Shown: piece after piece, positions 26,801 to 38,287 of the stretch
How the letters are laid out: each line of letters begins with the position of its first letter
How positions within the stretch are numbered: position 1 is the stretch's first letter
NCBI RefSeq assembly: GCF_024266585.1
Contig: NZ_CP100647.1
Location: 1,531,001 to 1,595,000, forward strand
Direction: 5' to 3'
Length of the DNA: 64,000 nucleotides
From: Xanthomonas sacchari
Lineage (GTDB): Bacteria > Pseudomonadota > Gammaproteobacteria > Xanthomonadales > Xanthomonadaceae
Program-made: the position numbers and the translations under genes
Notes under the pieces: generated by a model
The model's input: only the letters and a program-made list of their open reading frames with translations
Databases searched by the model: none
What the model was told of the DNA's origin: nothing

Positions 26801-27019
26801 GCGATCCCGCTGGTGGTCGCCGGCGGTCCCGGTTCGGCCAGCCGCGCCACCATCGGCATCGTGGTGATCTTCGGCGTGTCGGTGTCCACGCTGCTGTCGC
26901 TGTTCGTGGTGCCGGCGTTCTACGCGCTGCTGGCGCCGTACACGCGCTCGCCGGATGCGGTGCAGCAGCGCCTGCAGCAACTGGAAGCGCAGACCCCGTC
27001 GGTCGGCGGCCACGCCTGA
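23894..27019 (+). CDS. RND multidrug efflux permease (HAE1 type)
   Basis: 1041-residue proton-driven pump. It starts MKLSDVSITRPVFAAVMSLL, as in the MexK/MdtB-like class. Twelve transmembrane segments are expected. The proton-relay pair Asp-Asp in TM4 is in GLVVDDAIVVVENIQRR near residue 405, followed by the conserved ATTAVLVAVFLPVGFLEG. The second half has FALALLIVYLVLAAQFESF and GLAAKNGILIVEFANQ. Substrates of HAE1 pumps are typically hydrophobic drugs, dyes and detergents; the sequence does not say which. It is translationally coupled to the adaptor. Confidence 0.93.
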   Translation: MKLSDVSITRPVFAAVMSLLLVVLGVMAYSRLTLRELPAIDPPIVSVEVRYPGASAAVVESRITQVLEDALAGIEGIETIQARSSNGVADISIEFRATRDIEAAANDVRDAVSRVLDRLPDKADAPEIAKVEADADAILWLNMSSSTMDALQLSDYAERYVVDRLSSIDGVAQVRLGGRQRYAMRIWLDRDQLAARDLTVTDVENALARENVELPAGRLESTDRDFTLRVERSYRAPADFAAIPLGKGRDGYVVRLGDVAKVELASAERRAYFRSNGVPNVGLGIVKTSTANSLDVARAARAAAQQIQQTLPKGTQIFVAFDSTVFIDASVERVYHTLIEAVVLVLVVIWLFLGSVRAALIPAVTVPVCLVAAFIALYAFGFSINLLTLLALVLCIGLVVDDAIVVVENIQRRVDLGEPALVAARRGTAQVAFAVIATTAVLVAVFLPVGFLEGNTGRLFRELAVALAAAVAISAFVALTLTPMMSSKLLKAHAREQPNRVHGWVEARLQGLSARYRRVLERHVGRAWLFGALMLAALAASALLARIIPSELAPAEDRGSFQVMIDAPEGAGFDYTVGQMHQVEAILDRYRGDGQPIARANPRVPGSFGASEEMHTGRVSVFLRDWSERDVATADVAATLQDELRALPGVRARTQVGGGLVNGRGQPFQIVLGGPDYAEIAQWRDRLLARIADNPGLVGADSDYKETRPQMRVEIDRQRAADLGVPVTEIGRALETLMGARQVTTFVDNGEEYDVMLQASRDGRADPADLAAIRVRADSGQLIPLSNLVSLREVAEPGNLHRFNRLRAITINAGLAPGYPLGEAIAWAQQVAREELPDYAQLDWKGESREYQQAGGAVLLTFALALLIVYLVLAAQFESFIHPLVIMLTVPLGVLGALIGLAISGGTLNLFSQIGIVMLVGLAAKNGILIVEFANQLRDAGRSVRDAIVEASAVRLRPILMTSLATVVGAIPLVVAGGPGSASRATIGIVVIFGVSVSTLLSLFVVPAFYALLAPYTRSPDAVQQRLQQLEAQTPSVGGHA

Positions 27020-27043
27020 GCGGGGCCGCGCACGCCGGCTCGC

Positions 27044-28165
27044 TCAGGCCGGGTCGGTGCGCGACGAGGCCAGCGGCCGCGGCGCGCAGCGCGGCTGCTG
27101 CAGCAGGTGCACGAACTGCGCGGCGATCACCGCGCCGCCGAAATGGCGCTCCACGAACTCGCGCCCGGCCTGACCCATGCGCTGGCGCCGTTCGCTGTCG
27201 CACAGGCGCAGGATCGCGTCGCGCCAGCTGTCCACGTCGCCGGGCGTGAGCAGTTCGCCGCTGACGCCGGGGTCCAGCGTCTCCGCGGTACCGCCGACGT
27301 GGCTGGCCAGCACCGGCACCGCGCTGGCCTGCGCTTCCACCGAGACCCGGCCGAAGGTTTCCGGCGCCAGCGACGGGAACGCCAGCATCGACATCGCGTT
27401 GTAGTACGGGGTGGTGTCGTTGACCCAGCCGACGAAGCGGTGGCGTTCGCCATGCGGCTGGGCCTGCGCCTGCGCCTGCAACTGCGCCGCGTCCGGGCCG
27501 TCGCCCAGCCACAGGCAGTGCAGCCGCGGCTCCTGCGCCATCGCCGCGCCCGCGGCTTCCAGCAACGGGAAGATGCCCTTGCCGGCATGCATGCGCCCGC
27601 TGTAGCCGAGCACGATCGCATCCTCGGGCAAGCCCTGCGCGGCGCGGATGGCGCGGCCGCGTTCCGGATCCGGGCGCAGCCGTTCCATGGTCACCGGGTT
27701 GTACAGCACCTGCACCAGCGCCTCGGGCACGCCGCGCTCCAGGTAGGCCTGCCGCGCGTAGTGCGACACCGCGAAGAAGCGCGCCGCCAGCCGCGGGATG
27801 GCATAGCCGGACAGTGCGCTCATCGCCGGGGTGCGGTGGCGGAACAGCGTGACGGGGATGCCCAGGGCGCGCCCGGCCAGCAGCAGCGGCCAGTATTCCT
27901 TGCCGAAGTTGCCGACCAGCCAGTCCGGCCGGTTGTGCCGCGCCATCCGCAGCAACGGCCCGTAGCCGGCCGGATCCAGCACGTTGCGGAAGTGCCCGAC
28001 GTGCACGCGGATGCCGCTGCGGCGCAGCTCGTCGGCGATCAGGCCGCCTTCGCAGGCGATCACGTCGACCTGGTGGCCGACGCCGGCCAGGGCCTGCGCC
28101 AGGGCCACGAAATGCGTGGCCGCGCCGGTGTTTTCGGGATTGGTCCCGACGAATAGGAATTTCAT
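27044..28165 (-). CDS. family 4-like glycosyltransferase
   Basis: 373 residues with the GT-B fold. The N-terminal Rossmann half begins MKFLFVGTNPENTGAATHFV; the C-terminal donor-binding half contains LGYSGRMHAGKGIFPLLEA, LWLGDGPD and the EX7E region PETFGRVSVEAQASAVPVL. It probably transfers a sugar from a nucleotide donor to a cell-surface glycan; donor and acceptor are unknown. It overlaps the preceding polysaccharide deacetylase by four bases, so the two are likely to act on the same glycan. Confidence 0.85.
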   Translation of the reverse strand: MKFLFVGTNPENTGAATHFVALAQALAGVGHQVDVIACEGGLIADELRRSGIRVHVGHFRNVLDPAGYGPLLRMARHNRPDWLVGNFGKEYWPLLLAGRALGIPVTLFRHRTPAMSALSGYAIPRLAARFFAVSHYARQAYLERGVPEALVQVLYNPVTMERLRPDPERGRAIRAAQGLPEDAIVLGYSGRMHAGKGIFPLLEAAGAAMAQEPRLHCLWLGDGPDAAQLQAQAQAQPHGERHRFVGWVNDTTPYYNAMSMLAFPSLAPETFGRVSVEAQASAVPVLASHVGGTAETLDPGVSGELLTPGDVDSWRDAILRLCDSERRQRMGQAGREFVERHFGGAVIAAQFVHLLQQPRCAPRPLASSRTDPA

Positions 28166-28905
28166 CCGCGCCGGTCCTCGTAGGCGGTGAAGGCGCGCAG
28201 CGCGAACTGCGGCAGCAGGTGGTGGCGCGCGACCTGGATGCGCGGGTAGCGCATCGGGTCCGAGCCGGCGGGGGCACGGCCGCGGCGGGTGCTGGTGGCG
28301 GCGGTGTAGCCGGCCTCGCGCACCGCGTCGGCGACGCGGTCGTCGACGTCGCCGTAGGGGTAGCAGAACTGCGGCACCGCCTCGCCGAGCAGGTCCTCCA
28401 GTTCGCGCTTGCAGCCGCCGATCTCCTCGCGCAGGGCCGCATCGCTGCAGCCGGTCAGGTGCGGGTGCGAGCGGGTGTGCGCGCCAATCTCCATGCCGCC
28501 GGCGCGCCACTGGCGCAGCTCGGCGAGGTTCATCAGCGGCTTTTCGATGCCCAGCTTCTGCGCATCCCACACGTTGTGGCGGCCGATGCAGCCGCTGACC
28601 ATGTACACCGTGGCGGTGAAGCCCAGCCGCTGCAGCACCGGCAGCGCCGCGTGCAGGTTGTCCAGGTAGCCGTCGTCCAGGGTGACCACCGCGACCTTGC
28701 CCTGGCGCTCGCCGCGCAGGTACGGCATGGCGTCGGACATGGACACGCCGCGGTAGCCCAGCCGCTGCAGCAGGCGCATCTGCCGGGCGAAGCGGCCCGG
28801 GCTGACGTACAGGCTGCGGTACACCTGCAGGTGGCGCGGCGCCTCGGCCACGTTGTGGTACATGAAGATCGGAATGCGGGCCGTGGCGGCGGTGTCGGAG
28901 GGCAT
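28162..28905 (-). CDS. polysaccharide deacetylase (NodB-like, CE4)
   Basis: 247 residues with the NodB homology core: the catalytic/metal Asp pair in VVTLDDGYLDNL near residue 76, the metal His motif HTRSHPHL near 145, and QFCYPYGDVDDRV near 180. CE4 enzymes remove N- or O-acetyl groups from glycans such as peptidoglycan, chitin or poly-GlcNAc. No signal peptide is seen, so an intracellular precursor or a membrane-associated substrate is likely. First gene of a two-gene unit with a glycosyltransferase; divergent from the acetyltransferase gene. Confidence 0.85.
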   Translation of the reverse strand: MPSDTAATARIPIFMYHNVAEAPRHLQVYRSLYVSPGRFARQMRLLQRLGYRGVSMSDAMPYLRGERQGKVAVVTLDDGYLDNLHAALPVLQRLGFTATVYMVSGCIGRHNVWDAQKLGIEKPLMNLAELRQWRAGGMEIGAHTRSHPHLTGCSDAALREEIGGCKRELEDLLGEAVPQFCYPYGDVDDRVADAVREAGYTAATSTRRGRAPAGSDPMRYPRIQVARHHLLPQFALRAFTAYEDRRG

Positions 28906-29058
28906 CGGGGAACGGCTCTTGGGACGGATGGGCGACGTGCGGCGCGGGAGTCTAGCGGTGCTGGCTTTCGCTGGTCTGTCAGGGAAAACCCTCAGCCGTA
29001 GACGATCGCGCGCCGCCGGCGGCTATGCTGGGCGCCCCCGCCAGCACAGGAGCCGCCG

Positions 29059-29616
29059 ATGTCCGAGACCGCCGCTGCCGACCCCTGGCGCGACCTGCAA
29101 CTGCATCTGGATGGCATCGTGCTGCGGCGCTGGCGTGCCAGCGACCTGGACGCGCTGGTTTGTCACGCCGACGATGCCCAGGTGGCACGCTGGGTGAGCC
29201 GACGCTTCCCGCATCCGTACACACGTGCCGACGGCGAGGCCTTCCTGGGCGGGCAGGTGATCGATCTGAACAATCCGGTGCTGGCGATTGAAATCGGCGG
29301 CGAGGCCTGCGGTGGGATCGGCTTGCATGCCGCGGCGCAACCGGCGCCGGAACTGGCCGAGCTCGGCTACTGGCTCGGCAGTGCGCACTGGGGGCAGGGG
29401 CGGATGACCCGCATCGTTGCCGCCTACCTGGACTGGGCGGCGCCGGCCCTAGGCTTGCAGCGGATCGAGGCGTTGACGCTGCCGGACAATCACGGCTCGG
29501 CGCGGGTGCTGCAGAAGAACGGGTTTGCCGAGATCGGCACGCGCCGCGAGCTGGCGGTGCGCGATGGACAGGCGCGCGACCTGCGATGGTTCGCGCGGAC
29601 CTGGCCGGCGGCCTGA
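29059..29616 (+). CDS. GNAT N-acetyltransferase (RimJ/RimL-like)
   Basis: 185 residues of the RimJ/RimL-type GNAT family. It has LRRWRASDLDALVCHADD near the N-terminus, the acetyl-CoA region ELGYWLGSAHWGQGRMTRIV near residue 108, and the closing block RIEALTLPDNHGSARVLQKNGF near 138. Family members acetylate protein N-termini, amino acids or antibiotics; the substrate here cannot be told. AGGAG lies about seven bases upstream of the ATG at 29059. Confidence 0.85.
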   Translation: MSETAAADPWRDLQLHLDGIVLRRWRASDLDALVCHADDAQVARWVSRRFPHPYTRADGEAFLGGQVIDLNNPVLAIEIGGEACGGIGLHAAAQPAPELAELGYWLGSAHWGQGRMTRIVAAYLDWAAPALGLQRIEALTLPDNHGSARVLQKNGFAEIGTRRELAVRDGQARDLRWFARTWPAA

Positions 29617-29658
29617 GCCGCGCGTCGCCCCTGGGAGCGACGCGCGGGGGCCACGGCG

Positions 29659-30717
29659 TCAGTACGAAATGGTGGCCGAGGTCGCGGTGGTGTCCACCGC
29701 GTAGTTGCATTGCACATCCAGGCCGGAGCTCTCGCTGTAGGACTGCCACGCCGGCGACGTCACCCGCTGCATGCGGTAGTCGTACACGCCGATCGCGTCG
29801 AAGGTGATGCGGCCATCGGGCGGATACTGGTCGCAGCTGTCCACCGCATAGACTTCCAGCGCGCCGCCCACCACCAGGTGCCTGGTCGAATCGATGTCGT
29901 AGGTGGTGCTCAGCCGCACGCTCTGGCCGGTGGTGAGGTTGCGCGTGTCCACGTTCCAGTTCGTGCAGGGCTGGCCGTTGTTGCAGGTCGCGTAGGTGTC
30001 GCCCACGATCTGGTCGCCGGCGCTGGCCGCAATGAAATCGCTGTGCCACACCATGCCGTCCTGGCAGCAGTTCCAGCTGCTCAGGTCCCAGCTGTTGTTG
30101 TAGCCGCGGTAGCCCAGCACCGGTTGCAGGATCGTCGGATCGTCGCTCTGCAACCCCGGGAAGAAGTACACCGTCTGCTGCGCCACGTTGGTCGGGTTGT
30201 GCGGCACCGTCCAGCGCGCGACGATGCGGCCCATCTTGTTGCCGGTCACGTCGATGGCCGACTGTACCCAGGCGTAGGTGATCGGCGGCGGCACCGCGCC
30301 GCGCGCGCCCGATGCCCGCAGCGCGGCGCCAGCGCGGATAGGCCGCCCATCCAGGCCGTGTCCGTCAGGGTGCACCCGGGTGCCGTTGGGCAGGAAGTTG
30401 TCCTGGGCGCAGGTCTGCGCCGCTTCGCGTACGCCATCGGCACGCTGCAGGCGGCCGTCGGCGAGCACGCGTTCGTTGCGATGGACTTGGCGCACGCAGG
30501 TCGGCGCGAAATAGCCGAAGGGCGTCTGCACGTAGTCGTCGGGGACATTGGCGGGCTTGTGCGCGGCGTTCAGGGCGCCGACCCGGGCCAGGCGGGCGTC
30601 GGGCGCGGCGGTCTGCGCCAGGGCGCTGGCGCCCAGGCCCAGCAGGGGCAGCACCAGCAGCAGCGCGGCACCCAGGCGGCGCGCGGACGAGGAAAACGGA
30701 TGGAGGTCGGAGTGCAT
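29659..30717 (-). CDS. secreted protein of unknown function
   Basis: 352 residues. A signal peptide (RRLGAALLLVLPLLGLGASALAQ) directs export. After a ~110-residue Cys-containing N-terminal region comes a beta-rich domain (AWVQSAIDVTGNKMGRIVAR, WTVPHNPTNVAQQTVYFFPG, ILQPVLGYRGYNNSWDLSSW, GDQIVGDTYATC). The pattern recalls secreted concanavalin-like proteins of fungi and bacteria in which TVPxxP is followed by FFPGLQ and ILQPVL; I recall no experimental function, and this resemblance is from memory. Six to eight Cys suggest disulfides outside the cytoplasm. It stands alone with a 483-base upstream region. Confidence 0.7.
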   Translation of the reverse strand: MHSDLHPFSSSARRLGAALLLVLPLLGLGASALAQTAAPDARLARVGALNAAHKPANVPDDYVQTPFGYFAPTCVRQVHRNERVLADGRLQRADGVREAAQTCAQDNFLPNGTRVHPDGHGLDGRPIRAGAALRASGARGAVPPPITYAWVQSAIDVTGNKMGRIVARWTVPHNPTNVAQQTVYFFPGLQSDDPTILQPVLGYRGYNNSWDLSSWNCCQDGMVWHSDFIAASAGDQIVGDTYATCNNGQPCTNWNVDTRNLTTGQSVRLSTTYDIDSTRHLVVGGALEVYAVDSCDQYPPDGRITFDAIGVYDYRMQRVTSPAWQSYSESSGLDVQCNYAVDTTATSATISY

Positions 30718-31200
30718 GGGAATCGCCTTGTCGTGAGAATGCGAAGTGCGTTCTCGGGACGCCGCGGAGCGCTGCGCGTTGCGCCGGCGCAGGCCATCGC
30801 AGGTGTCCCGTCTGCGAAGCGCGTGGCACGGTGATGGCGGGTCGATGGGCACCTGTTTGGTGGCGGAAGAAGCCGCGACGATGGACCGGATGCGCAGGCC
30901 GCGCTTGTCGGATTTGCGCATCCGACACCGCGAATTCCGCATGGTGCGCGGCAAGTGCGAAAATCTTCACGGTTTCGGTCGGAATGCAGTTCGCGCCTTG
31001 CGTTGCGCGGTGTAGACAAGTCGCGTCACCGGGGTGCGTCACGCCGGGGCAGCCGTCGGCGCGCGGATGAGCGAAAATCCCCGCAGCGCGCCGTCCCTGG
31101 CGCGCGCCCCCGCGTGTTTCCAGGAGATTCCCATGCGTTGTGCCCTTCGTTCCTGCTGCGCCGCTGCGGCGTGGCGCGCCTGCGCCGCGGGCGTGCGCCC
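30718..31200. promoter_or_regulatory. long divergent intergenic region with an inverted repeat
   Basis: This 483-base region lies between the secreted-protein gene and the methyltransferase gene and must hold both promoters. TGTCGGAT (30906-30913) and ATCCGACA (30920-30927) form a perfect 8-bp inverted repeat around six bases, a plausible operator. Short open frames in this region have no ribosome site and no recognisable product. Nothing else stands out. Confidence 0.4.
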
Positions 31201-32043
31201 ATGACCTCGCCGTGGGGCAACCGCCCGCGCGGGGGCCGTCCCCCCGCTCCGCCCGCGAGAGGAGCCGGAGGTGAGGGGGCGGCGGCGGCCGGCACCCGCA
31301 ACGAACTGCGCCTGTACGGCCTCAACGCGGTGCGCGCGGTATACGCGCGGCGGCCGGAGGCGATCCGCAAGCTGTACCTGAGCGAGGCGCGGATCCCGGC
31401 GCTGCAGCCGCTGCTGAAGTGGTGCGTGGCCAATCGGGTCGGCTACCGCGTCGTGGACGAGGCCGACCTGCACAAGCTCGCCGCCAGCAGCCACCACGAA
31501 GGCGTGGTCGCCGACGTGCTGCGCGCCGCGCCGCTGGCCTTGGCCGACTGGCTGCAGACGCTGGCGCCGGGGCCGGCGGTGGCGCTGTGGCTGGATGGCG
31601 TGGGCAACCCGCACAACCTCGGCGCGATCCTGCGCTCGGCGGCGCATTTCGGCGTGGGCGCGATCCTGCTGCCGGAGCAGGCCGCGCTGGCGCTGTCCGG
31701 CGCCGCCGCGCGCGTGGCCGAGGGCGGCGCCGAGGCGGTGCCGCTGGTGCGGCTGCCGCCCGCGGCGCAGGCGCAGGCGCAACTGCGCGCGGCCGGCTTC
31801 GCCCTGGCGGCGACGCTGGTGGCCGGCGGCGACGATCTGTTCGCCGCCGCGCTGCCGCAACGCCTGGTCTACGTGATGGGCGCCGAGAGCGACGGCATGG
31901 ACCGCGGCTTCGCGCAGGCCTGCGACCTGCGCCTGTCGATCCCGGGCAGCGGGGCGGTGGAAAGCCTCAACGTCGCCGCCGCCACGGCGGTGTTGCTGGG
32001 AACCTGGCGCAGCCGGCATCCGCACGCGCACGCGGTGCGCTGA
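31201..32043 (+). CDS. SpoU/TrmH-family RNA 2'-O-methyltransferase
   Basis: 280 residues. Residues ~35-105 are the substrate-binding domain (LRLYGLNAVRAVYARRPEAI); residues ~120-275 are the SPOUT knot with motif 1 LDGVGNPHNLGAILRSA, motif 2 YVMGAESDGMDRG and motif 3 SIPGSGAVESLNVAAATAVLL, which bind S-adenosylmethionine. It methylates a ribose in rRNA or tRNA; RlmB-like activity is possible but not certain. The first ~30 residues are low-complexity Gly/Pro/Ala. The ATG at 31201 has no clear ribosome site. Confidence 0.88.
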   Translation: MTSPWGNRPRGGRPPAPPARGAGGEGAAAAGTRNELRLYGLNAVRAVYARRPEAIRKLYLSEARIPALQPLLKWCVANRVGYRVVDEADLHKLAASSHHEGVVADVLRAAPLALADWLQTLAPGPAVALWLDGVGNPHNLGAILRSAAHFGVGAILLPEQAALALSGAAARVAEGGAEAVPLVRLPPAAQAQAQLRAAGFALAATLVAGGDDLFAAALPQRLVYVMGAESDGMDRGFAQACDLRLSIPGSGAVESLNVAAATAVLLGTWRSRHPHAHAVR

Positions 32044-32150
32044 GCACGGCGTCACGGACTGAGGGCGGGCTGCATTTGGCTACGCGAGAGTGTGCGCGGC
32101 GGCCGGTTTCGGGTTTGCGGGGCGCGCGTTGGCGGCGTAGCGTCCCGCAG

Positions 32151-32186
32151 GCGCATCGCCACGAGGCCGCGCCTCGTGCGATGCGC
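32151..32186. promoter_or_regulatory. strong hairpin upstream of the precursor-peptide gene
   Basis: GCGCATCGCCACGAGGC (32151-32167) and GCCTCGTGCGATGCGC (32171-32186) pair over 16 bases with a single bulged C and a three-base loop. It lies 62 bases before the AWYIWY peptide start. No T tract follows, so it is a weak terminator candidate for the methyltransferase gene; it may instead be a regulatory stem or a REP-like element. Confidence 0.6.
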
Positions 32187-32248
32187 ACCAGCACGACTGT
32201 GCAGTTCCCCCCGAAAGGGCCATCGTCACTCCTGCGGAGATGTCGCTC

Positions 32249-32329
32249 ATGAAGCTGCTGTTCTCCCTCAAGCACCTGCTGTCGTCGAAGAAGCCGCTGA
32301 AGTCGTACGCCTGGTACATCTGGTACTGA
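32249..32329 (+). CDS. atropopeptide (tryptorubin-type) RiPP precursor, 26 residues ending AWYIWY
   Basis: ATG at 32249 preceded by GGAG at 32236-32239 (nine bases away); 26 codons then TGA at 32327. The product starts MKLLFSLKHLL, has a Lys-rich middle (SSKKPLKSY) and ends AWYIWY. From memory, AWYIWY is the hexapeptide scaffold of tryptorubin A, an actinomycete atropopeptide whose Trp and Tyr side chains are cross-linked by one P450. The next gene, 88 bases on, is a P450, matching the two-gene minimal locus of that family. The Lys/Leu-rich leader is probably removed by a host protease. The gene is far too short for default callers. Expression and modification are inferred, not shown. Confidence 0.85.
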   Translation: MKLLFSLKHLLSSKKPLKSYAWYIWY

Positions 32330-32417
32330 GCGCCGTGTGCGTTGCCGCGCGGCGTGCCGTGCGGCCGGGGCCCGGCGGATGCGCTGCGCCGGGCGCCGTT
32401 CCTCCAGGAGACTCGCG

Positions 32418-33464
32418 ATGTCCGCCACCATGGTCGAGCGCCACGCACGCGCCACGGTCTTCGCGCCGCGTCTGCAGGCGTTGCTGCGCACGCATCTGGG
32501 GCAGGAGGCGTTCCGCCTGGATGCCGATACGGTCGGCGTCGCCGGCGCCGCGCTGAGCGATCGCCTGCTCGCGGCGCGGCCCGCCACCGAACACGAACGG
32601 CCGACCTTCAAGCCGCTGCACGGCCGCTCGATCGCGCGCAGCGAGGCGGCCAAGCTGATGCAGGCGATCGGCCGCGATGTGCGCGAGGCGCTGCAGCGGC
32701 CGCCGCCGACCCGCGACCTGTCCGGTCCATGGCCGCACGTCGGCCACGTCTATCTGCGCGACCTGCTGCTCGGCGGCGACCCGTGGCGCCTGCGCCTGCT
32801 GATGGACCGCGCCCTGGAACTGACGCCGCGCCTGACCTGGGCGGTGATCGCCGCCGGCGCGCTCGCGCCGCTGGCGCCGGACGCGGAGGCCTCGGCGTTG
32901 GCCAGGCTGCTGTCCACGGCCGACGGCTACCGCGCGCGCCGCGATGCGATGGGTCTGTACCGGCGCACCGCCGCGCCGGTGTGCTTCACCATTTCCACGC
33001 TGGTCGCCAACGCGCTGTGGCTGGGATCGCCGTTCGACGCGCACGTCTCCAACCGCAACCTCCTCTACGAAACCCTGCGCCTGCTGCCGCCGTCCTGGAA
33101 CATCCTGCGCAACGCCTCGCCGGAGTACGGCGCGCTGGATCCGCGCATCGGCGCCGCCGACGACGTGCTGGTGCTGCCCTTGCTCAGCCATCGCGATCCG
33201 GCGTTGTGGGAAGCGCCGGAGGCGTTCCGCCCGGAGCGCTGGGATGGCCTGGATCCCGATGCGCTGCCCGGCTACCTGCCGTTCGGGCATGCCTCCGAAC
33301 GCTGCTGGGGGCGGCACATGGTCATGCCGCTGGCGGAGCGGTTGCTGGACCTGCTGCGTGCGCAGAAGCTGGTGGCGAGTCCGCGGCAGCGCCGCGCCGC
33401 GGTGCCGCTGACCGGGCTGCTCGGCGTGGCCCAGGTCGACGTGGTCCGGCAAGCGCACGCCTGA
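32418..33464 (+). CDS. cytochrome P450, probable atropopeptide cross-linking enzyme
   Basis: 348 residues, shorter than the usual ~400. The K-helix ExxR is ETLR (218-221), the PERF region is FRPERW (~270-275), and the heme-thiolate loop is FGHASERCWG (289-298) with the Cys ligand at 296. Two loop positions deviate from FxxGxRxCxG: Ala replaces the Gly and Glu the Arg. AGGAG precedes the ATG at 32418. It follows the AWYIWY peptide gene directly, so I infer that it forms the Trp/Tyr cross-links. No ferredoxin or reductase gene is adjacent, so electrons must come from elsewhere. No protease or exporter is present either. Confidence 0.85.
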   Translation: MSATMVERHARATVFAPRLQALLRTHLGQEAFRLDADTVGVAGAALSDRLLAARPATEHERPTFKPLHGRSIARSEAAKLMQAIGRDVREALQRPPPTRDLSGPWPHVGHVYLRDLLLGGDPWRLRLLMDRALELTPRLTWAVIAAGALAPLAPDAEASALARLLSTADGYRARRDAMGLYRRTAAPVCFTISTLVANALWLGSPFDAHVSNRNLLYETLRLLPPSWNILRNASPEYGALDPRIGAADDVLVLPLLSHRDPALWEAPEAFRPERWDGLDPDALPGYLPFGHASERCWGRHMVMPLAERLLDLLRAQKLVASPRQRRAAVPLTGLLGVAQVDVVRQAHA

Positions 33465-33491
33465 GCGGTGGCGTGCGCGCCATCGCCGCGC

Positions 33492-34538
33492 TCAGCGCCG
33501 CGGCGGCGCGGTGGACCCGCGCGTGACCAGGGTGTAGTCCAGCACCTGGTGGGTGCCGCGGCTGGGCAGGCCGTCGCGGCGCTGGCGGATCTCGGCGAGC
33601 AGCAGCGTCACCGCCGCTCCGCCCATCGCCGTGACCGGCTGGTGGATGGTGGTCAGCTCCGGCCAGATCGTGGTCGCCACCGGCGTGTCGTCGAAACCGG
33701 CGATCGACAGGTCCTCGGGCACGCGCAGGCGCAGCCCGTGCGCGATCGCCAGCGCCGCCGCGGCCATGTCGTCGTTGCTGCACAGGATCGCGCTGGGGCG
33801 CGGCGTGGCCTGCAGCAGCGTGGTGGCCGCGAGCAGCCCGGAGCGGTAGGTGAACAGTCCTTCGGCCACGCGCTGCGGCGCCACCGTCAGCCCGGCCTGG
33901 GCCATGGTGTCGAAGAACGCGCGGCTGCGCAGCGCGCTGGGCGTGTGGCCGGGATCGCCGCTGATGAAGCCGATGTCGCGGTGGCCCAGGTCGAGCAGGT
34001 ACCGGGTGAGCGCGCACGCGGCCTGGTAGTCGTCGATGCGCACCGAGCTGACCCTGGGCATCGGCGCGCCGGTGGCCACCGCCACCAGCGGAATGCCGCG
34101 CGCCTCCAGTTCGGCGATGGTCTGCCGCGCATCGCACAGCGGCGGCGGCAGGATCAGGCCGTCGGCGCCGGCATCGAGCAGGCGTTCGGTGGCGGCGCGC
34201 TGGCTGTCGCTGTCCTCGCTCTTCTCCACCAGCACCTGGCAGCCTTCCAGGCTGCTCTGCTCCAGCACGCCGAGCATGAACTGGTTGAGGTAGGCCGCGC
34301 TGGGATTGCTGTACAGCACGCCGATGCGCGCCAGTCCGGCGGTGCGCAGCGAGCGGCCGGCGAGGTTGGGGCGGTAGCCGAGCGCCTGGATCGACGCTTC
34401 GACGCGTTCGCGCATGGTCGCGCTCACGCGCGGGTGGCGGTTGATCACGCGCGAGGCGGTCATCGGCGACACGCCGGCATGGCGGGCCACATCCAGCAAC
34501 GTCACCGCTGAGCCCGCGCGGCGTTGCCGTATGCCCAT
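33492..34538 (-). CDS. LacI-family transcriptional regulator
   Basis: 348 residues. The N-terminal helix-turn-helix is VTLLDVARHAGVSPMTASRV followed by INRHPRVSATMRERV, and the hinge is LGYRPNLAGRSLRT. The periplasmic-binding-protein-like effector domain runs from residue ~65 (IGVLYSNPSAAYLNQFM; ILCSNDDMAAAALAIA; IAGFDDTPVATTIWPELTTI). It resembles GntR/gluconate-type LacI members that control sugar catabolism, but no sugar genes are adjacent. It converges on the P450 gene with a 27-base gap and is followed upstream by a peptidase gene in the same direction. Confidence 0.9.
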   Translation of the reverse strand: MGIRQRRAGSAVTLLDVARHAGVSPMTASRVINRHPRVSATMRERVEASIQALGYRPNLAGRSLRTAGLARIGVLYSNPSAAYLNQFMLGVLEQSSLEGCQVLVEKSEDSDSQRAATERLLDAGADGLILPPPLCDARQTIAELEARGIPLVAVATGAPMPRVSSVRIDDYQAACALTRYLLDLGHRDIGFISGDPGHTPSALRSRAFFDTMAQAGLTVAPQRVAEGLFTYRSGLLAATTLLQATPRPSAILCSNDDMAAAALAIAHGLRLRVPEDLSIAGFDDTPVATTIWPELTTIHQPVTAMGGAAVTLLLAEIRQRRDGLPSRGTHQVLDYTLVTRGSTAPPRR

Positions 34539-34602
34539 CAAAGGTCCTGGCACTGCTGCGGAAGGGAACCCCTGCGCGCGTCCTGCGCAGGGGCGGTGCA
34601 CT

Positions 34603-36018
34603 TTACTCCTTGGGCGGTTCCACTGTCTTGGCCTGGCTGCCGAAACCGCCATCGGCCTGTGCCGCCAGATATGCGAACACCGCATACGCGGCGACGTTCT
34701 GCGCCAGCGCCTTCGGGTCGATCTTGTCCAGGGTGTCGTCGGCGGTGTGGTGCAGATCGAAGTAGTCGCTGCCGTCCTGCGCCAGCCAGGCCCAGGCAGC
34801 GCCCTTGGCGGCCAGCGGACCGACGTCCGGGCCGGGGCCGCCGGCGTCCGGCGCATAGGCGATGCCGAGCGGCGCCAGCGCCTCGGCGATCTGCCGGGTC
34901 GCTTCGCGCGAGCCGGCGGCGTCGCCGGAGCCGGTGTTGAAGGCATAGATGCGGCCGGCGCCGAAGTCGCTTTCGGCGGCGATCTGATGCCGTGCCACGT
35001 CCTGCGCATGCGCCTGCGCGTAGGCCTTGCCGCCGTACAGGCCCTGCTCCTCGTTGGCGAAGGCGACCACGCGGATGCTGCGCTTGGGCGCCTGCTTGAG
35101 CTGGCCGATCAGATGCCCGGCGGCCATGCTGATGGCGACGCCGGCGCCGTCGTCGATCGCGCCGGTGCCCAGGTCCCACGAATCCAGGTGGCCGCCGATC
35201 AGCACGACCTCGTCGGGCAGCGTGCGCCCGGTGATCTGCCCGATCACGTTGTAGGAGGTGGCGGTGCCGTCCCAGCCGCAGTCCAGCGCCAGGCGCAGGC
35301 GCACCGGGCCGCGCGCCAGCAGGCGCGCCAACTGGTTGGCGTCGGGTACCGACAGCGCCGCAGAAGGCACCGGCGTCAGTCCCTCGTCGAAGCGGGTGAT
35401 GCCGGTATGCGGCACACGGTGCGAATCGGTGCCGGCCGAGCGCATCACGAAGCCGACGGCGCCCTTGCGGATCGCTTCGGACGGCCCCTTGCTGCGCACC
35501 GCGCCGCCATTGCCGTAGTCCTTGCCGTCGCGGGTGCGCAGCATCTGGTAATCGACGAAGGCGATCTTGCCGCGCAGCGCGTCGGCCGGCGCCGCCCGCA
35601 ACGCGGCCAGGTCGGCAAAGCGCACCACCTCGGCCTCGACCGTGCCGCCGGGGCTGCCGCCCAGCGCGGTGACGGTCAGCGGTTGTGCGTGCGCGCCGAG
35701 CACCTGGGCGTGTTCGCTGCGCCGCTCCCACTTCGGGAACGTCACCGGCTCGGTCCACACCTTGTCGAAGCCCAGCGCCTTGAACTTCGCCGTGGCCCAG
35801 GCCACCGCGCGCGCATCGGCGTCGCTGCCGGCCAGGCGCGGACCGATCTCGGTGGTCAGCGACTCGACCACCTTCCAGCCGGTGTCGTCGGCCAGCGCCC
35901 GCTCCCGCAGCGTCGCCGCATCGCGCAACGCTGCCTCCGGAATGCGCGTGGCCTCGGCGGCGACGGCAGGGGAGGACAGGCTCAGGACGGCAGCGATGAC
36001 GACGGCGAGACGGCGCAT
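34603..36018 (-). CDS. secreted M28-family zinc metallopeptidase
   Basis: 471 residues with a signal peptide (RRLAVVIAAVLSLSSPAVAA). A PA-like insert spans residues ~130-250, and the M28 catalytic domain holds the metal ligands in LIGGHLDSWDLGTGAIDDGAG, where His, Asp and Asp are visible, then FANEEQGLYGG with the catalytic Glu pair, and FDLHHTADDTLDKID near the end. It resembles plasma glutamate carboxypeptidase / carboxypeptidase Q, releasing amino acids from peptides in the periplasm. The ATG at 36018 gives a clean signal peptide. It probably forms its own transcription unit. Confidence 0.88.
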   Translation of the reverse strand: MRRLAVVIAAVLSLSSPAVAAEATRIPEAALRDAATLRERALADDTGWKVVESLTTEIGPRLAGSDADARAVAWATAKFKALGFDKVWTEPVTFPKWERRSEHAQVLGAHAQPLTVTALGGSPGGTVEAEVVRFADLAALRAAPADALRGKIAFVDYQMLRTRDGKDYGNGGAVRSKGPSEAIRKGAVGFVMRSAGTDSHRVPHTGITRFDEGLTPVPSAALSVPDANQLARLLARGPVRLRLALDCGWDGTATSYNVIGQITGRTLPDEVVLIGGHLDSWDLGTGAIDDGAGVAISMAAGHLIGQLKQAPKRSIRVVAFANEEQGLYGGKAYAQAHAQDVARHQIAAESDFGAGRIYAFNTGSGDAAGSREATRQIAEALAPLGIAYAPDAGGPGPDVGPLAAKGAAWAWLAQDGSDYFDLHHTADDTLDKIDPKALAQNVAAYAVFAYLAAQADGGFGSQAKTVEPPKE

Positions 36019-36112
36019 GGAAGACTCCGCGGACAGGAACGGCGAGCTTAGCAGCGCCTCGCCGCCGTGCACGGCGCGGCCTCCATGGCGGAGGCCGCGC
36101 GCGCCGTCGTGC

Positions 36113-36532
36113 TTACTCCGGGCGCGGCTCGGGCTTGAGCGAATCGCGGATCTCGCGCAGCAGCAGCACTTCCTCGCTCGGGGCCTTCGGCGCCGGCGGT
36201 TCCTTGCGGGCGATGCGGTTGATCGCCTTGACCAGCATGAAGATGGCGAAGGCCACGATCACGAACTGGATGATGGTGTTGAGGAAATCGCCGATGCCGA
36301 TCGCCACCGCCGGCACCGGCTTGCCCGCGGCGTCCACCGTGGCCGCCCTCAGCGTCCACGCCCAGCGCGAGAAATCCACGCCGCCCACGAGCAGTCCGAT
36401 CGGCGGCATGATGATCTTCTCCACCAGCGCGGTGACGATCTTGCCGAACGCGGCGCCGAGCACCACGCCGACCGCCAGGTCGAGCACGTTGCCGCGCATG
36501 GCGAATTCCTTGAATTCGCGGATCATGCTCAT
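36113..36532 (-). CDS. mscL: large-conductance mechanosensitive channel
   Basis: 139 residues, near-identical in plan to E. coli MscL (136). The N-terminal helix [20 protein letters not shown] leads into TM1 ([20 protein letters not shown]), then a periplasmic loop, TM2 ([20 protein letters not shown]) and a charged C-terminal bundle ([14 protein letters not shown]). It forms a pentameric inner membrane pore that opens at high tension to release solutes on osmotic downshock. A strong ribosome site (AAAGGAG, five bases upstream) supports the ATG at 36532. Confidence 0.96.
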
Positions 36533-36646
36533 CGGAACTCCTTTCTTGTCAGTGCGGGCCTGTCGCCGCGGCGTTAGCCTAGCGCAGTGGCCGTGGTGTT
36601 CAGATCACGGGCATGCATCCGCCGCGCGACCGGCACGCGCGGCCTC

Positions 36647-37354
36647 TCAGCCGACGATGCGGCCGTGGCGCTCGGCGACGTTCTCCAGGCGCGCGCTGAA
36701 ACGGTCGCCCGGGCGCAGCGCGGCCACGCCGGCCGGCGTGCCCATGAACACCAGGTCGCCGGCGCGCAGCGCGAACAGCTTGGACAATTCGTGCAGGATC
36801 TCCGGCACGTTCCAGATCATCTGCTCCAGCAGCGACTGCTGGCGCACCTCGCCATTGACCTCCAGCGACAGGTTCAGCGCTTCCAGCGCACCGACCTCGC
36901 CGGCCGGGATCAGCTCGCTGATCGGCGCGGACGCGTCGAAGCCCTTGGCGATGTCCCACGGCAGGCCCTTGGCCTTGGCGGCGGCCTGCAGGTCGCGACG
37001 GGTCAGGTCCAGGCCCACGCCATAGGCCAGGACCAGCGCCTCGGCGGCGTCGACCGGCAGCACGCCGGCCGGCGCGTCCTGGCCCAGCGCCACCACCAGT
37101 TCCACCTCGTGGTGCAGCTCCTGGGTCGCGGACGGGTAGGGGATGGCCTCGTCGCCGATCACCAGCGCATCGGCCGGTTTCATGAAGAAGGTCGGCTGGC
37201 CGCGCTCGGCCTTCGAGGCCGGTGCGCTGGCGCCCATCTCGCGCGCATGGTCGGCGAAGTTGCGGCCCACGCAGTAGATGCGATGCACCGGGAACAGACC
37301 CAGGCCGCGCACGGGAACGCGCGGAGCCTCGGCAGCGGCGAACAGGTCTTTCAT
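36647..37354 (-). CDS. fumarylacetoacetate hydrolase family protein
   Basis: 235 residues with the FAH core: IYCVGRNFADHAREMG, the metal-binding Glu residues in LHHEVELVVALG, and LVFMGTPAGVAALRPGD near the C-terminus. Small stand-alone FAH members act as acylpyruvases, oxaloacetate decarboxylases or 2-hydroxyhepta-2,4-diene-1,7-dioate isomerases, so the exact substrate is open. The length and motif order are closest to the FAHD1/YcgM type. It is not in an aromatic degradation cluster. Confidence 0.85.
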   Translation of the reverse strand: MKDLFAAAEAPRVPVRGLGLFPVHRIYCVGRNFADHAREMGASAPASKAERGQPTFFMKPADALVIGDEAIPYPSATQELHHEVELVVALGQDAPAGVLPVDAAEALVLAYGVGLDLTRRDLQAAAKAKGLPWDIAKGFDASAPISELIPAGEVGALEALNLSLEVNGEVRQQSLLEQMIWNVPEILHELSKLFALRAGDLVFMGTPAGVAALRPGDRFSARLENVAERHGRIVG

Positions 37355-37435
37355 GGGCGTGCATCCAACGAGAAGGGGATGCAGCAGTCTACCGCGATGG
37401 GTTCAACCCAAATCCAACAGGCATACGGAATCCGC

Positions 37436-37473
37436 TCTTGCGATTCCCCAATCCCGATTCCCCATTCCCCGCT
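37436..37473. repeat. CGATTCCCCAATCCCGATTCC repeat element
   Basis: GATTCCCCAATCCCGATTCC followed by CCATTCCCCGC, between the small membrane protein and the FAH gene. It belongs to the same family as the elements at 4202, 5555, 14515, 17613 and 40175. It is a single arm here, without a nearby inverted partner. Confidence 0.75.
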
Positions 37474-37746
37474 CTAAAGCGGCAAGGCCGGCTTGCGCAC
37501 CACCCGGTACTCGCCATCGACGACATGGCGGCGCGCGGTGGCCGGACGCTTGCCGCGCTGGCTCAGCAGCTTCATGGCGATGCCGCCCAGGATCATCGCC
37601 GCGCCCACGAACACGCTGACGAATACCAACCCGGCCAGGATCGCCAGGCCGAGCAGGCCCACCGCCAGCTTGACCAGCGGATGGCGCGGCTTGCGCGGCG
37701 CGAAGACGTGCCGGAATTGGTCGAAATTGAAGAGGCGAGCGCGCAT
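37474..37746 (-). CDS. small membrane protein, function unknown
   Basis: 90 residues starting MRARLFNFDQFRHVFAPRKP. One long hydrophobic segment (LVKLAVGLLGLAILAGLVFVSVFVGAAMIL, residues ~24-53) probably forms one or two inner membrane passes. The C-terminal tail is Arg/Lys-rich and cytoplasmic by the positive-inside rule. I do not recognise the family. The neighbouring genes are unrelated. The clear hydrophobic profile and dedicated upstream region make it a likely real gene. Confidence 0.7.
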   Translation of the reverse strand: MRARLFNFDQFRHVFAPRKPRHPLVKLAVGLLGLAILAGLVFVSVFVGAAMILGGIAMKLLSQRGKRPATARRHVVDGEYRVVRKPALPL

Positions 37747-37948
37747 GGCAGAACTCTGTTTCAGTTTGAACCGAAGGGGCGCAGTATCGGCGCTGTTTTA
37801 TGTGACGGAGTGAAAACTTCGTTAAGCGAAAAATTAACACTTTGCGTTCAGGGGCTTGCATGTCCTTGAGGAGTGAAGAGGGCGCCGCGCCGCGGGGGCG
37901 AGCGCCCATGCGAAAATGGCGATCTCCTCGTTGCCCGTGCTGCGCGCC

Positions 37949-38287
37949 ATGACCGAATCTCCCGCCGTGCTGGCATCGCTGCACGATCTCGTCCCCGGCG
38001 AACTGGCCGAGGCCGGGGCGGTGCTCGGTGGCGAGTCCGAGTCGTTGCTGCTGTACCGCGAGGGCGACGCCGTGCGCGCCTGGTTGAACGTGTGCCCGCA
38101 CGCCGGGCGCCGCCTGGACTGGGCGCCGGGGCAGTTCCTGAAGAGCCGCGAGGGCCATGTGGTGTGCGCCGCGCACGGCGCCGCCTTCGAACTGCAGGGC
38201 GGCCTGTGCGTGTCCGGCCCATGCCGCGGCCAGAGCCTGCATGCGGTGCCGGTGGATGTGCGGGCAGGGCAGGTGGTGCTGGTCTAG
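37949..38287 (+). CDS. Rieske [2Fe-2S] protein
   Basis: About 112 residues from ATG 37949; an in-frame ATG at 37916 would add eleven residues, and neither has a clear ribosome site. The Rieske cluster ligands are Cys/His pairs in NVCPHAGRRLDW and VVCAAHGAAFELQGG. The second pair reads CAAH rather than the usual CPxH, which is a tolerated change. Small soluble Rieske proteins act as ferredoxins for oxygenases. It might in principle supply electrons to a redox enzyme in this genome, but no partner is adjacent. Confidence 0.8.
   Translation: MTESPAVLASLHDLVPGELAEAGAVLGGESESLLLYREGDAVRAWLNVCPHAGRRLDWAPGQFLKSREGHVVCAAHGAAFELQGGLCVSGPCRGQSLHAVPVDVRAGQVVLV

Follow-up and report, generated by a model that had tools for sequence, protein, structure and literature searches.

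What does a 26-codon gene whose product ends in AWYIWY encode when it stands just upstream of a cytochrome P450 gene in Xanthomonas sacchari, where did such a pair come from, and what might it make? The pair lies in a stretch of 64,000 nucleotides (positions 1531001-1595000 of a genome that forms one contig of 4.89 Mb; hereafter the window). A first-pass annotation had read it as a probable atropopeptide locus, with a small gene behind a good ribosome binding site and, 88 bases further on, a P450 carrying ExxR and heme-cysteine motifs. The sequence bears these elements out, and we are highly confident that the locus is a member of the atropopeptide family with a two-gene minimal cluster, because a curated profile, the pairing of both genes in relatives and the P450 tree agree. 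Its parts are:

32236..32239, forward strand: likely ribosome binding site of the precursor gene, GGAG (from the sequence; the same in 7 members of the genus)
32249..32329, forward strand: atropopeptide precursor gene, 26 residues, with leader MKLLFSLKHLLSSKKPLKSY containing a KPLK motif and predicted core AWYIWY (NF038372, relatives)
32406..32410, forward strand: likely ribosome binding site of the P450 gene, AGGAG (from the sequence)
32418..33464, forward strand: atropopeptide-modifying cytochrome P450, 348 residues (Pfam p450, predicted fold, clade of precursor-paired P450s)

Precursor, P450 and their pairing

The precursor gene starts with an ATG at 32249, 9 bases after its GGAG, and runs for 26 codons and a TGA, giving the product MKLLFSLKHLLSSKKPLKSYAWYIWY. 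Another ATG in the same frame, three codons earlier (32240, for 29 residues), is the poorer start, since a one-base difference in the relative L007 puts the place of that codon out of frame. The peptide passes NF038372, the NCBI curated model for precursors of tryptorubin family ribosomally synthesized and post-translationally modified peptides (RiPPs), with 54 bits (E=1.5e-14) against a cut-off of 33 bits, and is matched once in the genome, at its own locus. It also has the length and leader motif of atropopeptide precursors (10-40 residues, K[SP]LK-type), and its core carries a tryptophan at position 2 with adjoining aromatic residues; KPLK is among the listed leader motifs and W2 is the sole conserved core residue (PMC11450843). 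The suggestion that a differing leader marks a new subfamily thus falls away. In an alignment of 7 members of the genus, invariant columns make up 95% of the precursor. Ahead of it their share is 55% at 32044-32200 and 84% at 32200-32248, and it is 63% between the two genes, 76% where the P450 begins and 82% over the last part of the upstream gene. At 32249-32326, the precursor differs from 8 near relatives (6 distinct) by 0-1 synonymous changes, while the proportion of synonymous differences (pS) in the P450 is 0.17-0.26; 26 codons are too few for certainty on a constraint at the RNA level.

In the P450, the ExxR residues E218 and R221 and the heme ligand C296 are invariant across 36 aligned sequences, the window's included. 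The Pfam p450 match (43.1 bits, cut-off 22.8) covers residues 215-301 alone, which raises the question of a truncated enzyme; this is countered by a predicted fold that spans residues 16-348 and by the lengths of relatives, which are 343-376 residues for 86 of the 90 locus rows (some genomes are counted more than once among them), the exceptions being L088 with 328 residues and the broken L013, L087 and L089. The enzyme shares 94% identity with the P450 of Xanthomonas sp. F10, itself identical to the enzyme of a member of the window's genus (G006), and 91% with its counterpart in Xanthomonas sp. NCPPB 1128, which places the host in Xanthomonas. It evolves under purifying selection, with ratios of nonsynonymous to synonymous substitution (dN/dS) of 0.15-0.23 in 14 comparisons (11 distinct). 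Its best NCBIfam P450 match is the aminopyruvatide enzyme ApyO (NF050147), like the biarylitide P450Blt a P450 that cross-links a RiPP; with a score of 64.9 bits where the cut-off is 525, over residues 214-322 only, an ApyO assignment was rejected. P450Blt, with which no direct comparison was made, is not among the 50 structural matches listed, which excludes nothing.

When P450 loci were compared (the best 80 among 97 relatives retrieved with the window query, a choice that favours near relatives), a precursor of this type stood just upstream of the P450 in 79 of 80. Precursor matches occur in 8 of 20 genomes of the window's genus, 7 of them with an AWYIWY precursor and one more with two others, and across the family in 13 of 297 genomes drawn and 2 of 54 genera. 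The same count, 8 of 20, holds for a complete P450 with at least one precursor, and a ninth genome (G004) keeps a P450 fragment alone. Of the 35 genomes of the second Xanthomonas genus, 12 carry a P450 match, which is broken or partial in three (G303, G228, G108); a TAG flagged in the matches of G309, G310 and G315 is probably the gene's own terminal stop, tblastn showing no internal one. Tandem precursors, with SWPHWY and AWEGYISY cores, precede one P450 in L009/L010 and L090 and are perhaps the published double-precursor clade; the reported WPHWY and WEGYIS products (PMC12352619) fit them, and they would correspond to XamA1 and XamA2.

The small frame is therefore conserved beside its P450 in relatives, other Xanthomonas genomes among them, and the nearest relatives of the enzyme in the tree are atropopeptide P450s rather than unrelated catabolic ones, the two points on which the first-pass annotation could have failed. 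Open frames are common in DNA this rich in G and C, 12 of at least 20 residues overlapping 601 bases here, so that a chance frame beside a catabolic P450 might have been suspected; the profile match, the conservation and the pairing in 79 of 80 loci refute it, and we give it practically no weight. Two negative results weigh against the assignment: no close relative of the P450 was found among solved structures, which its sequence matches only over about residues 204-338, and a scan of 31950-33560 found no sigma-70-like promoter.

The cluster is no new kind, already being in print for Xanthomonas. Atropopeptide clusters are reported as abundant in this genus, and those of Pseudomonadota as mainly from it (PMC11450843), which removes the novelty for Gram-negative bacteria that had been supposed; the window locus shares host group and motif type with those clusters and with the precursors XaaA, XamA1, XamA2 and others of PMC12352619. 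What we add are the downstream synteny, the Xanthomonas P450 clade, the occurrence of a neighbouring peptidase with or without the P450, the empty, refilled and broken sites, and a possible hairpin.

Descent of the cluster and its neighbourhood

In a quick, midpoint-rooted tree of 85 P450 rows (82 differ; L001, L008 and L010 were left out as repeats, and L013, L087 and L089 as broken or partial), the 17 Xanthomonas rows all fall into a single group (99 by the Shimodaira-Hasegawa-like approximate likelihood ratio test, SH-aLRT) within one Pseudomonadota group (98), outside which lie 62 actinobacterial rows. Downstream, genes for LacI, MscL and an FAH-type protein are common to all 12 named Xanthomonas loci. 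Only this side is shared throughout: upstream, the loci of the window's group (L001-L012, L090) have a methyltransferase-like gene that was not found in the other Xanthomonas loci (L013-L016, L019, L081, L087-L089, of which L087 reaches only about 2 kb upstream). Also upstream is a 431-residue frame on the reverse strand (29662-30954), 74-76% identical in L011 and L012, which matches no Pfam family at 0.001.

The shared downstream neighbours and the single P450 clade speak for vertical inheritance of the cluster within Xanthomonas. A recent transfer from an actinomycete, one form of the transferred locus that the first-pass annotation had entertained, could draw on the mostly actinobacterial make-up of the wider P450 family, on the differing upstream neighbours of the two Xanthomonas groups, on the G+C content of the precursor (54.3%, over 81 bases only, against 68.9% for the window) and on a published suggestion of such transfer for two clades, which are not matched to this locus (PMC11450843). 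It is nevertheless contradicted by the nested Xanthomonas and Pseudomonadota groups, by the common downstream genes and by the G+C content of the P450 (73.6%), in keeping with that of its neighbours (73.1% and 76.8%), and we regard it as highly improbable. An old transfer, the other form of that idea, is likely: the grouping found here and a published rooted tree in which the Pseudomonadota enzymes of tested precursors lie furthest from the root (PMC12352619) suggest one old entry of the cluster from Actinomycetota into Pseudomonadota. Within Xanthomonas the AWYIWY core looks ancestral, since it occurs in both Xanthomonas genera, Dyella and Collimonas, and the Trp-x-x-Tyr cores (SWGLYM, AWSNYM, AWEGYISY) would then be derived; at least 14 changes between AWYIWY and other cores on the tree (82 rows), and a proposal that this core arose several times (PMC11450843), count against so simple a history.

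An M28 peptidase gene (34603-36072, reverse strand) stands next to LacI. If it belonged to the cluster, chief among the neighbouring genes, it might cut off the leader, and it is indeed near the P450 in 11 of the 12 named Xanthomonas loci (not L090), while proteases are reported as frequent beside Xanthomonas atropopeptide P450s, with a role suggested (PMC11450843). The peptidase is widespread, however. In the window's genus 18 of the 20 genomes have it (one in pieces), as do 32 of the 35 in the second, and neither genus shows an association with the P450. In the first it occurs in 7 of the 8 genomes whose P450 is complete and in 11 of the 12 others (one in pieces; Fisher p 1.0), and in the second in 12 of 12 with a P450 match against 20 of 23 without (p 0.54), in tests that ignore relatedness. 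Moreover, G012 has the P450 and two precursors without such a peptidase at E 1e-60, and no homologue at E 1e-15 was found in 6 other Pseudomonadota and 62 actinobacterial loci, some of them short. We thus reject it as a cluster-encoded leader protease, a role we hold very unlikely. Because it occurs with or without the P450, and is missing from G012 despite the cluster, the peptidase is probably a conserved bystander, and the reported association of proteases in Xanthomonas may reflect synteny.

Eleven site stretches from genomes without a complete P450 show what can stand in the cluster's place. The upstream gene was not found in three (L118, L120, L124), and eight hold both the methyltransferase-like gene and LacI: in two, about 335 and 226 bases separate the two matches; in five (L119, L122, L123, L126, L127), a frame of 501-510 codons, carboxylesterase-like by eye (no search was made), occupies the site; in one, a P450 fragment lies between them. 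None of the 11 stretches yielded a precursor remnant. The fragment in G004 shows that the cluster was lost there, and the empty and refilled sites fit either order, absent first or lost later. Broken or partial P450 copies occur in L013/L108, L087/L115, L089/L116-L117 and L128, the precursor still being present in L013 and L089.

The region upstream of the precursor

The strongly conserved block before the precursor gene holds one further feature:

32210..32219, forward strand: CCCGAAAGGG, a possible small hairpin that lies 39 bases ahead of the precursor's ATG and may be a messenger RNA (mRNA) leader element; pairing by inspection

By inspection, CCCGAAAGGG can form three pairs around a GAAA loop inside the 84%-invariant block 32200-32248. 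Of the 14 Xanthomonas loci compared, 11 have an exact copy 36 to 40 bases ahead of the ATG (the window, L002-L007, L090, L016, L019 and L089); seven of these 11 are close kin. In L014 and L081 the same stem carries another loop (CCCATCAGGG), and L015 lacks both forms. Six loci of other hosts (L017, L024, L029, L040, L018, L020) do not contain the exact ten bases, and the window holds one exact copy against 0.09 expected. No Rfam match was found in 30900-34600, the hairpin included, no terminator in the scan of 31950-33560 and no transfer RNA in 27000-38000. We treat this small element as a lead, a possible mRNA leader structure.

The product and its meaning

The closest known parallel is the Streptomyces cluster for tryptorubin A and B, which shares the two-gene layout, a precursor of about 26 residues, a K[SP]LK leader motif and the core AWYIWY. 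The window locus differs from it in its Gram-negative host and in a leader that departs from actinobacterial ones at many positions, and its P450 is 54-73% identical to the actinobacterial P450s among the best 80 of 97.

By analogy, the 26-residue precursor would be translated and its KPLK-bearing leader would dock on the P450, which would oxidatively join aromatic side chains of the core. As in tryptorubin A, three bonds could be expected, two of them linking aromatic side chains (a C-C and a C-N bond) and the third, also C-N, reaching the backbone, with a loss of six hydrogens; docking, three bonds by one P450 and leader removal are all taken from the tryptorubin work as given in PMC11450843 and PMC12352619. 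A protease from elsewhere in the cell, unlinked to the cluster, would then free the hexapeptide, from which the alanine might later be lost. The product, if made, is probably tryptorubin A or a crosslink isomer of it, and would be expected at an [M+H]+ of about 895.377, or 824.340 without the alanine (computed from the published WYIWY value of 830.3871). Among the titles and abstract openings listed in searches of open papers, where subscription journals are largely absent, none reports a product of a Xanthomonas atropopeptide cluster.

The Xanthomonas enzyme might instead make something simpler than a tryptorubin-like tricycle, namely a Trp-x-x-Trp monocycle 4 to 6 residues long. Several points bear against the tricycle: ScaB yields monocyclic products from several precursors, the WYIWY core included, and Trp-Trp monocycles from LauA (PMC12352619); the Pseudomonadota P450s form a group of their own, from whose phylum no atropopeptide had been reported as of 2025 according to the same source; and the core by itself does not reveal the bond pattern, because one core gives different products with different P450s (PMC12352619). 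On the other side, LauB1 installs three modifications on the same WYIWY core, and the jum and amyxirubin P450s, although just 59% identical, gave the same compound (PMC11450843). From Pseudomonadota precursors ScaB gave mainly Trp-x-x-Tyr products (PMC12352619), whereas the window precursor has the Trp-x-x-Trp tryptorubin core. On balance we consider a monocycle rather unlikely and keep to tryptorubin A or its isomer as the probable product. A bolder picture, in which the long-separated Pseudomonadota P450 clade uses its own bond pattern on the tryptorubin core, the hairpin controls translation and the resulting crosslink isomer has a plant- or microbe-associated role, is speculative and, taken as a whole, improbable.

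For the family, these observations mean that a protease near a Xanthomonas atropopeptide cluster need not be its leader protease, which bears on the published suggestion. Joining a tryptorubin core to a Pseudomonadota P450, the locus is suited to asking whether the core or the enzyme sets the bond pattern. And since some Xanthomonas keep the cluster beside the same downstream genes next to which others have no copy or a broken one, the genus offers a good system for studying the role of atropopeptides.
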